Below, piece by piece: positions 13,431 through 31,176 of a DNA stretch of 64,000 nt (positions are counted from its first letter, which is position 1; every line of letters begins with the position of its first letter). Position numbers and translations under genes: made by a program. The notes below the pieces were generated by a model. The model saw only the letters and a list, made by a program, of their open reading frames with translations, was not told where the DNA came from and did no database searches. The DNA is taken from assembly GCA_030430205.1 (NCBI GenBank), contig JAUIGE010000027.1:1-64000 (forward strand), read 5' to 3'. Origin of the DNA: Bacteroidia bacterium (GTDB lineage: Bacteria > Bacteroidota > Bacteroidia > J057).

Positions 13431-13521
13431 GAGTAGAGAGTAGAGAGTAGAGAGTAGAGAGTAGAGAGTAGAGAGCAGAGAGTAGAGAGTAGAGAGCAGA
13501 GAGGAGAGAGTAGAGAGCAGA
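13431..13521 (+). repeat. Heptanucleotide tandem repeat array (GAGTAGA)
   Basis: Thirteen uninterrupted 7-base units: nine GAGTAGA, three GAGCAGA and one GAGGAGA. The 7-base phase continues in diverged form (GACTGAA, GACTAAA) almost to the ygiQ ATG at 13560. The unit length is not a multiple of three, so slippage would alter spacing and any overlapping frame. Confidence 0.97.
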
Positions 13522-13559
13522 GACTGAAGACTGTTAACTAAAGACTGAAGACTAAAATT

Positions 13560-15437
13560 ATGAATAGACCTCTCACAGATTGGTTACCGATTACCCGGAA
13601 AGAAGTAGAAATGCGTGGCTGGGAGGAATTGGATGTTATCCTGATTTCGGGCGACGCGTATGTGGATCACCCGGCCTTCGGCCCGGCTGTCATAGGCCGC
13701 ATCATTGAAAATGCGGGCTACCGTGTGGCGATCATCCCCCAGCCCAACTGGCAGGATGACCTGCGCGACTTCAAAAAGATGGGCAAGCCCCGCTTGTTTT
13801 TTGGCGTTACCTCGGGTTGCATGGATACCATGGTCAATCACTATACCGCCAATAAGCGCAAACGCGCCACCGACGCCTATACCGCAGGCGGCCAATCCGG
13901 CTTTCGCCCCGACTATGCCGTCAATGTTTACTGCAATATATTGAAAGAACTCTATCCCGATGTGCCCATCGTTGTGGGCGGAATAGAGGCCTCCCTGCGT
14001 CGGGTGACGCATTATGACTATTGGGATGACAGGCTCTTCCCTTCGATTTTGGAAAGCTCGCGCGCAGACCTGCTCGTCTATGGCATGGGCGAACAGCCCC
14101 TGCGGGAGATCCTCGATTTGCTCAACAAAGGCGTTCCCCTTTCATCCCTCTCCACCATCAAACAGACGGCTGTGATGATAGAGGAAGGAGGCAAACTGCC
14201 CAAAAACAAAAACTGGGAGGATGTGGAAATCCATTCCCATGAAGTCTGTCTGAAAGACAAGATCAAATTTGCGAGCAATTTTAAGATCATTGAACAGGAG
14301 TCCAATAAGGTCCAGGCGAGGCGCATTTTGCAGCAGGTGGGCAAAAAGAAATTGGTCATCAATCCTCCTTTTCCGCCGATGACGGAAAACGAAATTGACC
14401 ATTCTTTCGATTTGCCCTACACACGCCTCCCCCACCCCAAATACAAAAAGCGCGGCGCTATCCCAGCTTATGAGATGATCAAATTTTCGATCAATATGCA
14501 CAGGGGCTGTTTTGGGGGATGCAGTTTTTGCACCATATCGGCCCACCAGGGCAAATTTATCGCGTCGCGCTCGGAGGAATCCATTCTGAAAGAAGTGGAT
14601 GAAATGGCAAAAATGCCTGATTTCAAGGGCTATATCAGCGACCTGGGCGGTCCTTCCGCCAATATGTACAAGATGAAAGGCAAGGTTCAAAGCATTTGTG
14701 ATAAATGCTCTGCTCCGAGTTGCATCCATCCTGTGATCTGCCACAACCTGGACACGACGCATGCGCCGCTGACAGAGATTTACCAAAAGGTAAATGCCCA
14801 TGAAGGCGTCAAAAAGGCCTTTGTTTCCAGCGGCATCCGCTATGACCTGCTGGTCAGCAGCTACAACAAAAAAGCAGATCCCGCGGATCTGGAAAACTAT
14901 ATGGACGAGTTGGTGGAAAACCACCTCTCAGGCCGCATGAAAGTCGCGCCCGAACATACTTCAGACAATACGCTGAAGGTCATGCGAAAGCCTTCTTTCA
15001 AATATTTTCACGAATTCAAAAAGGCCTACGACCGCCTGAATAAAAAACATGGCAAGGAGCAGCCGCTCATTCCGTATTTCATTTCCAGCCACCCCGGCTG
15101 CGAAGAACAGGACATGGCCAATCTCGCCTGCGAGACCAAGGACATGGGCTTTCAGCTCGAACAGGTACAGGGTTTTACCCCGACTCCCATGACTGTGGCT
15201 ACAGTCATATATTATACCGGTGTTCATCCCTACACCCTCAAACCCGTCTACACGGCCAAAACGCGGGAAGACAAGGAAAACCAGCACCTTTTCTTCTTTT
15301 GGTACAAAAAGGAAAACCAGGAAAAAATCCGCCGCAAACTGACCAAAGTCGGTCGCGAAGACATGGTGGAATCTTTGCTGGGAAAGGTGAAAGGCAGTGA
15401 GGTTATTGGGAGGCGGAAGGGTAAAAAGCGCGCCTAG
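13560..15437 (+). CDS. YgiQ family radical SAM protein
   Basis: This 625-residue protein has the layout of the YgiQ/UPF0313 family. An N-terminal B12-binding-like Rossmann region (about 20-200; PAFGPAVIGRIIE, VVGGIEASLRR) precedes a radical SAM domain whose Fe-S ligands are Cys317, Cys321 and Cys324 in CFGGCSFC. A Cys-containing insertion follows (CDKCSAPSC-IHPVIC). The C-terminal region has the conserved GFTPTPMTVATVIYYTG and ends with a basic tail. The reaction catalysed by YgiQ proteins is not established. The gene is monocistronic; its stop codon directly abuts that of the convergent 1159-residue protein. Confidence 0.93.
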   Translation: MNRPLTDWLPITRKEVEMRGWEELDVILISGDAYVDHPAFGPAVIGRIIENAGYRVAIIPQPNWQDDLRDFKKMGKPRLFFGVTSGCMDTMVNHYTANKRKRATDAYTAGGQSGFRPDYAVNVYCNILKELYPDVPIVVGGIEASLRRVTHYDYWDDRLFPSILESSRADLLVYGMGEQPLREILDLLNKGVPLSSLSTIKQTAVMIEEGGKLPKNKNWEDVEIHSHEVCLKDKIKFASNFKIIEQESNKVQARRILQQVGKKKLVINPPFPPMTENEIDHSFDLPYTRLPHPKYKKRGAIPAYEMIKFSINMHRGCFGGCSFCTISAHQGKFIASRSEESILKEVDEMAKMPDFKGYISDLGGPSANMYKMKGKVQSICDKCSAPSCIHPVICHNLDTTHAPLTEIYQKVNAHEGVKKAFVSSGIRYDLLVSSYNKKADPADLENYMDELVENHLSGRMKVAPEHTSDNTLKVMRKPSFKYFHEFKKAYDRLNKKHGKEQPLIPYFISSHPGCEEQDMANLACETKDMGFQLEQVQGFTPTPMTVATVIYYTGVHPYTLKPVYTAKTREDKENQHLFFFWYKKENQEKIRRKLTKVGREDMVESLLGKVKGSEVIGRRKGKKRA

Positions 15438-26752: not shown

Positions 26753-28375
26753 ATGACCATCACACAAACCCCAAAAACTTCTCAAAATCAACAAGACATG
26801 AGTTTTGATCTGAAAAAGTACGGTATTAATGTGGAGAAAATTCACAGAAACGAAAGTGTTCCTAATCTGTATGAAATCGGCCTTGTATCCGAAAAAGGTA
26901 CTGCCATGTCAGATGTCGGCGCGCTGTTGGTGTTCTCTGGTGAGAAAACCGGACGTAGCCCAAAAGACAAACGTATAGTAGCTCATCCTGAGTCCAGCCG
27001 CTACATCGACTGGGGCAATGTGAATATCGGATTGGACGAGCATATTTTCATGATCAACCGGGAGCGTTCTATTGACTTCCTCAATACCCGTGAGCGCGTA
27101 TTCGTCGTGGATGCCTTTGCCGGATGGGATCCCAAATACCGCATCAAAGTGCGCGTGATCTGTACCCGTGCCTATCATGCACTATTCATGCAAAACATGC
27201 TCATCATGCCTACGGCAGAGGAGCTCGCCAACTTTGGCGAACCAGACTACACCATTTTCAATGGTGGCGCTTTCCCCGCCAACCGCTACACCTCCAAGAT
27301 GACTTCCAAGACCAGCATCGACCTGGACCTGGAGCGTCAGGAGATTGTGATTTTGGGTACGGAGTACGCCGGTGAGATGAAAAAAGGCATCTTCTCGGTC
27401 ATGAACTACCTCATGCCTCACAAAAATGTATTGCCTATGCACTGCTCAGCGAATGTAGGCGAAGCAGGAGATGTAAGTTTGCTTTTTGGTCTTTCAGGAA
27501 CAGGAAAAACCACTTTGAGTGCTGACCCCCAGCGCAAGCTGATCGGTGATGATGAGCACTGCTGGACAGATGATGGCGTTTTCAATATTGAAGGAGGTTG
27601 CTATGCCAAAGCAATTGACCTGAGCGCTGAGAAGGAGCCGGATATTTTCAAAGCGATTCGCTTTGGTACGGTTCTCGAAAATGTCGGCTTCGACAAAGCC
27701 ACTGGCAAAGTTGACTATACCGATGTTTCCATCACCGAAAATACACGTGCCTCCTACCCTATTCACTTCATCGAAAATGTGCAGATTCCTTGTGTGGCAG
27801 GTCATGCCAGGAACATCATTTTCCTGACTTGTGATGCTTTTGGGGTATTGCCACCTGTCAGCCGTCTGACTCCTGAGCAGGCCAGCTATCACTTTATCTC
27901 TGGCTATACCGCCAAGGTTGCCGGCACAGAGATGGGCGTTACAGAGCCACAGGCTACTTTCTCCGCCAACTTTGGCGCAGCATTTATGATGTGGCACCCC
28001 AACAAATACGCCGAGTTGCTCTCCGAAAAAATGAAGAAACACGGTGCCAAAGCATGGTTGGTCAATACAGGATGGACAGGCGGTGCTTATGGCACAGGCT
28101 CACGTATCAAACTGAAATTTACCCGCGCCATCATAGACGCTATCCATAATGGCGATTTTGATAATGTCGAGACCATCGTAGAACCTCGTTTCGGTCTGGA
28201 GATTCCAACTTCATGCCCCGATGTTCCCGCTGAGGTTTTGGTTCCCCAAAACACCTGGTCAGACAAAGCCAGCTTTGATGCTACACTCGAAAAACTGGTG
28301 AAGCTTTTCCAGAAAAACTTTACCCAGTTTGAGCAGGGCGTAAATGATGAGATAGTGGCTGCAGGGCCTAAGTAG
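26753..28375 (+). CDS. pckA: Phosphoenolpyruvate carboxykinase (ATP)
   Basis: This 540-residue enzyme interconverts oxaloacetate + ATP and PEP + ADP + CO2, the entry to gluconeogenesis. Visible signatures are the kinase-1a P-loop GLSGTGKTT (246-254), followed by LIGDDEHCW with the metal- and phosphate-binding residues, the upstream [14 protein letters not shown] substrate loop, and the conserved [12 protein letters not shown] near the C-terminus. Length fits the ATP-dependent type. A second ATG at 26798 (MSFDLKKYG) would also give a normal N-terminus. Monocistronic: a 7-bp repeat array begins five bases after the stop. Confidence 0.97.
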
Positions 28376-28379
28376 AGTT

Positions 28380-28428
28380 GAGAGGCGAGAGGCGAGAGGC
28401 GAGAGGCGAGAATAGAGACGGGAGACAA
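28380..28428 (+). repeat. Heptanucleotide array (GAGAGGC), downstream of pckA
   Basis: Four perfect GAGAGGC units followed by GAGAATA, GAGACGG and GAGACAA keep exact 7-base phase. The array begins five bases after the pckA stop. Confidence 0.95.
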
Positions 28429-28479
28429 GAGCGTTTTGTTCTATGTCTTCCGTCTTTTATATTTAGGCCTTATTTCCTA

Positions 28480-28535
28480 TCTCTGTTCTCTGTTCTCTGT
28501 TCTCTGTTCTCTGTTCTATACTCTCTACTCTCCCC
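28480..28535 (-). repeat. Heptanucleotide array (TCTCTGT) abutting a start codon
   Basis: Five perfect TCTCTGT units, then TCTATAC, TCTCTAC and TCTCCCC, again in exact 7-base phase, ending two bases before the ATG at 28538. On the opposite strand the unit is ACAGAGA, the same GAGA-centred type as the other arrays, and it lies inverted relative to the array at 28380. Confidence 0.95.
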
Positions 28536-28537
28536 CC

Positions 28538-29131
28538 ATGATCTACGAATTTAAAGGATTCATCCCTGTCATCCACCCAACGGCCTTTGTGCATCCCCAG
28601 GCTGCGGTTACAGGCAATGTCATTATTGGCAAAGATGTGTACATCGGCCCGGGTGCCGCGATACGTGGAGATTGGGGTGGCATCATCATCGAAGATGGCT
28701 GCAATGTGCAGGAAAACTGCACCATTCACATGTTTCCGGGAGTTACGGTTTTGCTGAAGGAAGCGGCCCATATAGGGCATGGAGCGATCATACACGGCGC
28801 GACCATCGGTCGCAATGTGCTCATCGGCATGAATGCCGTGGTGATGGATGATGCCGTGATCGAGGACGAGTCTATCGTTGGGGCTTTGAGTTTTGTGAAG
28901 GCGGGCATGCGATTCCCGAAGCGAAGTATCATTGCCGGAAATCCGGCAAAAGTCGTCAGAGAAGTAAGCGATGAAATGATCGCGTGGAAGACCCAGGGTA
29001 CCCAATTGTACCAAAGCCTCCCACGCGATTTATATAACAGTTTAAAGGAAGTTGAACCTTTAAGAGAGATTCCAGCAGACAGGCCCTCGCAAGAGCAACT
29101 CTACAAAATATGGAAATCAGAAAATAAATAA
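28538..29131 (+). CDS. Gamma-carbonic-anhydrase-like hexapeptide-repeat protein (PaaY type)
   Basis: I place the start at 28538 (MIYEFKGFIPVIHPTAFVHP), because the longer frame is only translation of a TCTCTGT repeat. The 197-residue protein is a left-handed beta-helix of hexapeptide repeats (residues about 12-150) with the histidines expected for the metal site: His in NCTIHMFPG, and the pair in AAHIGHGAIIHG. A C-terminal helix follows. This fits the gamma-carbonic-anhydrase/PaaY group; whether it hydrates CO2 or hydrolyses thioesters cannot be told. It lies alone between two 7-bp arrays, convergent with gap. Confidence 0.88.
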   Translation: MIYEFKGFIPVIHPTAFVHPQAAVTGNVIIGKDVYIGPGAAIRGDWGGIIIEDGCNVQENCTIHMFPGVTVLLKEAAHIGHGAIIHGATIGRNVLIGMNAVVMDDAVIEDESIVGALSFVKAGMRFPKRSIIAGNPAKVVREVSDEMIAWKTQGTQLYQSLPRDLYNSLKEVEPLREIPADRPSQEQLYKIWKSENK

Positions 29132-29147
29132 TCCTCTCATCCTCTCA

Positions 29148-30608
29148 TCAATAATAACAATGTCTCCTAACCCGGGTCAGGTGCTTTGCCAATCGAACAA
29201 CCTGGCAGCTATAGCCAAACTCGTTGTCATACCAACAGTATACCACTACATTTTTTCCGTCTACTGACACGATGGTCGAAGGTGCATCTACAACCAATGC
29301 GCTCGGCATACCGACAGCGTCGCTGGAAACGTATTCCGGATCGCTGGAATAATGGATTTGCTCCACCAGCTCTCCATGAAGCGCAGCTTCACGCAGGATC
29401 TCATTCAGTTTTTCGACTGTTGTCGCGTTTTTCAGGCTTAGGTTAAGAATAGCCATCGAAACGTTAGGGGTCGGTACGCGGATGGCGTTACCTGTCAATA
29501 CACCCTTCAATTCAGGAAGTACTTTCTCCACTGCTGAAGCTGCACCGGTGGATGTCAAAACCATGTTGAGGGGCGCACCTCTGCCCCTGCGTGGCTTCTT
29601 GTGGAAGTTGTCGATCAGGTTCTGGTCGTTGGTGTAGGAGTGAATGGTTTCCACATGGCCTTTGTCCAATCCCAATTTTTCATTCAGCACTTTCAAAACA
29701 GGCACAATCGCATTGGTGGTGCATGAAGCAGCACTATAAATGCTTTCCTGGTCGAGGTCAAAAGATTCGTGGTTTACCCCATAAACGATATTAGGGACAT
29801 CGCCTTTGCCGGGAGCTGTCAGCAATACTTTGCTGGCACCGGGACGCAGGTGCTTGCTCAATGCTGAGCGATCGCGCCATACGCCTGTGTTGTCGATCAC
29901 CAGGGCATCCTCTATGCCATAGGCTGTATAATCAACGTCTTCAGGATTTTTAGCATAAATCATCTGAATCCGGTTGCCATTGATGATCAACTCTGATCCA
30001 TCTTCATTCACATCTATTTTCCCAGGAAAATCTCCATGAACAGAGTCAGATTGCATCAAAGATGCACGTTTGAGGCTTTCCTCATATTGATCCGCCAATT
30101 GAGGGCGGATAACAATCGCCTTGAGGCGAAGCTGCTCGCCCTTGGCTGTCATCGAGACGATGCGTCTCGCCACCAATCTGCCGATACGGCCCAGGCCATA
30201 TAGAACAACATCTTTGTGTTCTTCATTTTTGGGCGCAGCGCCAAGAATTGATTTTAATTGGATTTTAAGGAAATCTGAAATCGGCTCTTTTTTACCGCCT
30301 TCTATCCATTCCAATCCCAGGTGACCGATATCTACTCTGCAAGGAGCGAGACCTTCCATTTGCTGGAGCGCGCTTGCAACTGCCAGGCTGGTTTCTACCC
30401 CAAGAGGGTGAGTTGAATAATTTTGGGCAAACTTATGGATATTCAACAAGGTACTCGGACGAGAATCATATACTTCTCTGCGAAACAGAATCAACTCTAT
30501 AGAGCGATTAAAGCGGAGCTCACCGGTAATGCGCAGGAGCTCTAGCGCCGTTTTTTCCTGTTCGCGCCAATCGTTGAGAGAGGCATCAACTTGATTTCTA
30601 ATAGACAT
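29148..30608 (-). CDS. gap: Glyceraldehyde-3-phosphate dehydrogenase, N-terminally extended form
   Basis: This 486-residue protein carries a complete GAPDH, but the Rossmann motif GLGRIGR is at 138-144 instead of near residue 10, so there is an extra domain of about 130 residues ahead. The catalytic Cys296 is in SAASCTTN, and the C-terminal region has the usual WYDNEFGYSCQVVRL. It oxidises glyceraldehyde-3-phosphate with NAD(P)+ and phosphate. The extension is helical (LNDWREQEKTALELL) and is known from large GAPDHs of Bacteroidota and some other bacteria; its role is not clear to me. Cofactor preference is not evident from the sequence. Monocistronic, 89 bases after QueD. Confidence 0.95.
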   Translation of the reverse strand: MSIRNQVDASLNDWREQEKTALELLRITGELRFNRSIELILFRREVYDSRPSTLLNIHKFAQNYSTHPLGVETSLAVASALQQMEGLAPCRVDIGHLGLEWIEGGKKEPISDFLKIQLKSILGAAPKNEEHKDVVLYGLGRIGRLVARRIVSMTAKGEQLRLKAIVIRPQLADQYEESLKRASLMQSDSVHGDFPGKIDVNEDGSELIINGNRIQMIYAKNPEDVDYTAYGIEDALVIDNTGVWRDRSALSKHLRPGASKVLLTAPGKGDVPNIVYGVNHESFDLDQESIYSAASCTTNAIVPVLKVLNEKLGLDKGHVETIHSYTNDQNLIDNFHKKPRRGRGAPLNMVLTSTGAASAVEKVLPELKGVLTGNAIRVPTPNVSMAILNLSLKNATTVEKLNEILREAALHGELVEQIHYSSDPEYVSSDAVGMPSALVVDAPSTIVSVDGKNVVVYCWYDNEFGYSCQVVRLAKHLTRVRRHCYY

Positions 30609-31063: not shown

Positions 31064-31130
31064 GAAAATGAAGATGGTTTATTGGTTTGTTCGTTTGTTG
31101 GTTGGTACGAAGGCGCAAAGGTCGCGCATC

Positions 31131-31176
31131 ATCCGCTCATCTGCAAATCCGCTCATCCGCTCATCTGCTAATCTTC
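31131..31176 (-). repeat. Short tandem repeat between queD and the S41 peptidase gene
   Basis: ATCCGCTC and ATCTGC(A/T)A units alternate (ATCCGCTCATCTGCAA, ATCCGCTC, ATCCGCTCATCTGCTA) in the 104-base gap. Just before it, around 31081-31105, a TTGTT/TTGGTTGG stretch is also low in complexity. Confidence 0.75.

Follow-up and report, generated by a model that had tools for sequence, protein, structure and literature searches.

Heptanucleotide arrays have long been noticed in bacteria, though never with a proven function. In cyanobacteria, heptamers known as short tandemly repeated repetitive (STRR) sequences form tandem arrays with many intergenic copies, and the arrays described here are like them in both respects. 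Heptanucleotides predominate among long simple sequence repeats, for which slippage has been proposed (Mrazek et al. 2007, as cited in PMC4692102 and PMC4679880), and seven is the favoured unit length here too; as cited in those papers, the study does not state a strand rule, pairing of arrays or turnover at orthologous spacers. A literature search returned nothing closer to our arrays than the two citing reports themselves. The first (Rehm et al. 2015, PMC4692102) concerns G-rich heptamers, GGGAATC in Xanthomonas and GGGGA(C/T)T in Nostoc, which, like the arrays here, are intergenic between aligned ORFs, and which share their strand rule, lying in sense orientation within 50 bp of a stop codon or in antisense orientation ahead of an ORF. 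Some form inverted pairs, and the same spacers in two species carry them with variation in length and sequence. G-quadruplex formation was shown for these heptamers, and the authors could not identify a regulatory role. The second report (MacGregor 2015, PMC4679880) describes TAACTGA heptamers upstream of starts in Beggiatoaceae, cyanobacteria and five Bacteroidetes, for which it suggests a post-transcriptional regulatory role. These too have an exact 7-base unit, are intergenic, lie mostly just 5' of starts in fixed orientation, and hold within the unit the ACTG core of one family found here.

The arrays that we describe differ from both in several ways. As described by Rehm et al. (PMC4692102), each genome has one G-quadruplex-forming family, whereas several families occur at once here; the GAGANNN and CAGTNNN units read mostly without GGG and so largely lack G tracts, and only some GTTTCGG arrays contain GGG. 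Further differences from those heptamers are the long pairs of a G-rich followed by a C-rich array and the exchange of one unit family for another at a single orthologous spacer. TAACTGA is described as one exact unit, present in the main genome in sets of two to six copies (PMC4679880); our ACTG-core units are not exact tandem copies of TAACTGA, and the arrays here have degenerate units, several families and G-rich partners after stops. Heptanucleotide arrays as a kind are already known, as is the strand rule for the G-quadruplex heptamers of Xanthomonas and Nostoc. What is new here is that families without G tracts obey that rule and that units turn over at a fixed spacer; our search returned neither a strand rule for heptamers without G tracts nor a heptad hairpin that outlasts a change of unit.

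The locus from which we started lies in a window, the whole stretch of 64,000 nucleotides that was analyzed, from a 7.24 Mb Bacteroidota genome. It is the spacer (28376-28537) between two plus-strand genes, upstream pckA (26753-28375), whose assignment to phosphoenolpyruvate carboxykinase (ATP) we regard as secure from its match to NCBIfam TIGR00224 at 782 bits above the cut-off, and downstream a gene for a hexapeptide-repeat protein (28538-29131) that is like PaaY and CaiE and scores below the cut-offs of both families. Homologues align from the first residue encoded at ATG 28538 and argue for this start over TTG 28436, from which the frame is open through the second array (34 extra residues). 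The pckA stop codon, ending at 28375, precedes a G-rich array of seven GAGANNN units on the plus strand (28380-28428), with trimers in the order GGC four times, ATA, CGG and CAA. A C-rich plus-strand array of TCTCTGT type, equivalent to GAGANNN on the minus strand, occupies 28477-28532 and diverges toward its end, TCTCTGT-type units at 28477-28517 giving way to TCTATAC, TCTCTAC and TCTC up to 28532. The core between them (28429-28476) supplies the inner stem and loop of a predicted hairpin. Counted to 28479, the inter-array stretch is 51 bases; lag-7 matching runs into it from both sides (segments 28374-28431 and 28471-28532), so the array-free part is only about 39 bases. The two 7-base arrays reported in a preliminary description of this DNA are real, and its statement that the second ended two bases before the ATG needs correction: about five bases separate the end of this array from 28538, and at that end lies a C6 run (28532-28537), immediately 5' of the start codon. 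That description also took the arrays to be complements, which is right for the tetramers, as GAGA and TCTC pair, and wrong for the trimers (GGC versus TGT), which do not. It placed them around a gene leader; a more accurate description is that they occupy the entire intergenic spacer, stop codon to next start. Close to other starts in the same genome, CCCC or longer runs within 25 bases upstream occur at 14 of 57 starts next to arrays versus 41 of 693 elsewhere, and no such enrichment was seen in 80 named loci (0 of 31 versus 16 of 800).

A second plus-strand heptad array in the window (13431-13556) begins with 13 GAGANNN units that pass in phase into ACTGNNN-type units, and it stops 3 bases short of a radical SAM gene (13560-15437). 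Three families prevail across the genome, with GAGA/TCTC, GTTT/AAAC or CAGT/ACTG as core next to three variable bases; TCCATTN is a minor, rarer fourth family, found at G000:C2 26144-26241 (L112) and G000:C8 121-236 (L126). Scanning a 1,032,665-base sample of the genome gave 103 arrays, counted after splitting arrays at changes of skew. Of 539 core spacings, 523 are multiples of 7; the period is thus preserved even though the sequence diverges, as the preliminary description had noted for the diverged copies at pckA. In the first sample of 682,311 bases, 66 of 85 non-redundant tandem arrays repeated every 7, 14, 21 or 28 bases; no such arrays appeared once the mononucleotides of that sample were shuffled. 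Strict tetramer runs in it covered 3730 bases at period 7, whereas none of the remaining periods between 3 and 24, multiples of 7 excluded, accounted for more than 210 bases, and triplets of six core tetramers numbered 336 at spacing 7 versus 0-4 at each of 5, 6 and 8-13 (682 kb sample). Over the whole genome, overlapping matches to (AAACNNN)3AAAC numbered 563+627 (1190) versus 26+12 for the reversed-pattern control, and those to (ACTGNNN)3ACTG, whose units are mostly ACTGCCN, ACTGCAN or ACTGAAR, numbered 186+176 (362) versus 1+0. For (GAGANNN)3GAGA there were 581+512 (1093), a count for which the reversed control (545+514) is uninformative because most units also contain AGAG. These results confirm that tandem seven-base units occur well beyond chance. 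They strongly support the presence of other such arrays in the genome, for which the preliminary description had proposed a scan; the pckA-hexapeptide arrays are one spacer of a genome-wide heptanucleotide simple-sequence class, and a single special regulatory site at pckA is ruled out, since like arrays are found throughout the genome.

The arrays lie mostly between called genes that are largely co-directional, and they begin a few bases past a stop codon or end a few bases short of the next start; genes were called by our own codon-usage script rather than a standard annotator, and arrays that appear inside genes may be miscalls. We typed arrays by GC skew and pooled all samples. Near stops, 42 of 48 arrays are G-rich in the sense strand (23 of 27 in the own genome), and near starts 28 of 30 are C-rich (12 of 12), ratios that omit arrays lying near either end at once (14 G-rich, 10 C-rich) and those in mid-spacer (5 G-rich, 15 C-rich), from a count that also omits 44 arrays outside spacers between called genes and 19 with weak skew. 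This is the placement published for the heptamers of Rehm et al. Adjacent pairs on the plus strand run G then C in 39 of 41 cases (21 of 21 in the own genome), and 7 of 18 G-then-C pairs are not complementary, GAGA being followed, for example, by AAAC or ACTG. In convergent spacers 25 of 30 arrays are G-rich in the sense of the nearer stop, and in divergent spacers the arrays near starts (6 C-rich, 4 G-rich) follow no clear rule. Before starts, array-free spacers of the own genome also show a slight excess of C, and the start-side preference is thus in part a feature of leaders in general. Their stop-side skew is near zero (0.010 versus 0.190 in array spacers), and the preference at stops can therefore be ascribed to the arrays. 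For the 80 loci the mean skew on the stop side is small (0.030 in array spacers versus 0.007) and adds nothing to the case. The published strand rule has been discussed through G-quadruplexes, an explanation that is weakened by units mostly without G tracts that obey the same rule and that suggest a broader cause, whether an asymmetry of mutation or a constraint acting on intercistronic RNA.

When folded as RNA, the pckA-hexapeptide spacer is predicted to form a single spacer-long hairpin on the plus strand (28374-28532) of -66.1 kcal/mol, compared with -47.8 (sd 3.8) for shuffled sequences (z -4.77), and none of 200 shuffles was as stable. The idea that the two arrays could pair in RNA is thereby borne out for this spacer, and it extends to most paired spacers as a class. 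A z below -3 was obtained for 9 of 12 paired co-directional spacers of the own genome versus 17% of 81 array-free spacers, and for 6 of 7 in the 80 named loci versus 25% of 80; the one paired spacer of the same-genus genome G001 did not reach it (0 of 1 versus 33% of 30). About a third of the array-free spacers, chosen at random, were folded. In 11 of the 12 own-genome spacers no more than 11 bases separate the stop from the beginning of the first arm. We also considered exact arm complementarity as a maintained feature and rejected it: when arms were re-paired between spacers, k-mer complementarity within spacers of the own genome was only slightly higher (p 0.05 to 0.22 by k-mer length), and the strong result for 12 pairs from the named loci is confounded because these loci come from different genomes with their own unit families.

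The clearest comparison between species comes from eleven Flavobacteriaceae-type loci (L073, L088, L090, L093, L094, L098, L099, L100, L102, L105 and L108) in which the hexapeptide gene is preceded by an orthologous gene, as judged by reciprocal best hits; in the two loci tested this gene encodes enoyl-CoA hydratase. The spacers are 57-106 bases long and carry heptad arrays in 9 of 11 cases (the exceptions are L090 and L098). When sorted by eye, the units of these nine fall into seven families: GTTGTAG/CTACAAC (L088, L099), GTTTCAG/CTGAAAC (L094, L105), AGAAAAT/ATTTTCT (L108), GAGTTAT/ATAACTC (L073) and three further families (L093, L100, L102). Ten of the spacers were folded (not L098); the nine with arrays gave z values of -3.3 to -7.1, with 0 of 200 shuffles as stable in each, and the array-free L090 gave -1.7. 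These predicted hairpins leave 4-37 bases unpaired before the ATG. Even between L094 and L108, whose flanking proteins are 95-97% identical, the units differ; L088 and L099 share unit family and spacer length, with two mismatches in L099 that are uncompensated relative to L088. At this orthologous spacer, then, position, period and fold persist while the unit sequence turns over, and a spacer that keeps its fold and period in this way offers a direct functional test. A twelfth related locus, L048, has a 379-base spacer with no array at threshold. In a class-wide draw of 395 genomes, searched for closer relatives of L088, the best matches were at most 78% identical, and 30 loci from the draw had no array upstream of the hexapeptide gene except the own locus, a weak result given that 14 of the 30 lacked a gene call there. 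The long spacer upstream of the hexapeptide gene in L252 carries repeats, GATTAGCTGATGCTGAT first and ATCAGCTAATCAGCTCAT last, that are inverted arrays of another unit length.

At pckA itself, G001 has GTTTTGA GTTTGGG GTTTTGC units directly after the stop codon, another family in the same place, and it has no array upstream of the orthologue of the radical SAM gene, so that one of the two window sites compared is shared in position. Among 557 orthologous spacer pairs from the 80 loci, arrays are present in both members of 49, in one of 78 and in neither of 430; we claim no significance for general positional conservation, as one spacer supplies most of these and the pairs are not independent.

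The distribution among genomes is patchy. The GAGA pattern occurs in 16 of 60 genomes, the own included, with one match in G001; the AAAC pattern occurs in 22 of 60, again with the own included, with 420 matches in G001 and other trimers elsewhere; and the ACTG pattern was found in the own genome only, among 13 genomes. A unit-agnostic lag scan of the 80 named loci (878,297 bases, almost all titled as Bacteroidota) gave 62 lag-7 arrays, in 30 of the loci; no other lag in the range 4 to 15, multiples of 7 aside, gave more than 12 arrays. G001 has 22 lag-7 arrays in 400 kb, with lags 6 and 8 raised too (19 and 14), G032 has one in 200 kb, and the same-family genome G007 has none in 171 kb. One G001 contig, C86, opens with about 16 GTTTAGG units (L155 bases 1-113), a plant-telomere-like heptamer, and this array possibly broke the assembly.

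The explanation that we consider likeliest, and would put at about an even chance from the sequence evidence, is growth by slippage combined with toleration or partial selection of an intercistronic hairpin. In its favour are the strict period, the strand rule, the missing stop-side skew of array-free spacers, the folding of paired spacers and the orthologous spacer with its changing units. Arrays would grow and shrink in 7-base steps through slipped-strand replication, and copying or snap-back synthesis from one arm or locus to another may seed them anew. Wherever a G-poor leader just 5' of the start stays unpaired in the transcript and complementary G-rich copies fold over the rest of the spacer, arrays would be tolerated and probably, in part, selected. 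Such a hairpin would absorb the length from stop to start, so that expansion would hardly alter the effective distance, and it might also protect or segment the operon mRNA. The proposal in the preliminary description that the arrays are hot spots altering leader length would be consistent with the strict 7-base step and the differences between species. Several observations count against the likeliest explanation. In the own genome the arms match only weakly once the genome-wide families are allowed for, the L099 mismatches are uncompensated, some paired spacers fold ordinarily (3 of 12 in the own genome, 1 of 7 in the named loci and the single one in G001), non-complementary G-then-C pairs exist, the G001 radical SAM orthologue has no array upstream, and the strand rule holds in convergent spacers too, where there is no start codon.

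A purely mutational origin ranks not far behind the hairpin explanation, and we regard it as a real if lesser possibility. The arrays would then be function-free by-products of 7-base polymerase slippage, with inverted pairs made by template switching (snap-back) that prefers G-rich nascent ends, and spacers would be filled since coding sequence excludes arrays. The exact 7-base step with diverging units fits this account, as do the G-then-C order in convergent spacers and regardless of complementarity, the homogenization of the two arms of one spacer to different trimers, and the patchy occurrence among related genomes. Its difficulties are that many loci of the own genome share only a small number of unit families, an outcome that slippage starting independently from random seeds would not produce, and that 9 of 11 orthologous spacers hold heptad hairpins with different units. 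A bolder reading, which we offer only tentatively and think rather unlikely, is a sequence-free intercistronic element. Selection would act on the stop-to-start position, the period of seven, the hairpin and the order of G-rich before C-rich strand, and the units themselves would drift and be replaced wholesale between species. The operon spacer would be looped out and a G-poor unpaired leader presented to the ribosome; such bacteria initiate translation largely without Shine-Dalgarno sequences. The arrays of Bacteroidota, Xanthomonas, cyanobacteria and Beggiatoaceae would then be one convergent device.

The remaining explanations fare worse. The heptads might form a regulatory network of sites at which a protein binds RNA or DNA in 7-base steps, and a cold-shock or S1-type protein was proposed by MacGregor for TAACTGA (PMC4679880), whose published placement is resembled by the sense ACTG units just 5' of starts; three unrelated cores in one genome and free turnover between species fit no single sequence-specific protein, and the flanking genes looked at belong to general metabolism, so that we consider this improbable. 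Intrinsic terminators made of heptads, suggested by G-rich arrays after stops and by the formation of hairpins, are less probable still, given that arrays lie mostly between co-directional genes, that no terminator-like site was called in the pckA-hexapeptide spacer, and that the bases 3' of second arms are mostly C- or A-rich, not the T run that would follow a GC-rich stem. Phase variation, with unit number switching the downstream gene, gains some appeal from tandem arrays a few bases from start codons and is equally hard to credit for arrays that adjoin housekeeping genes and very many ordinary spacers and that leave L088 and L099 equal in length.

Seven is not the only period seen. In the own-genome sample lag 8 is the next commonest, and the window itself contains octamer arrays at 31075-31121, 31129-31174 and 29106-29149, of types TGGTTTGT, TCATCCGC and ATCCTCTC, near other gene ends.
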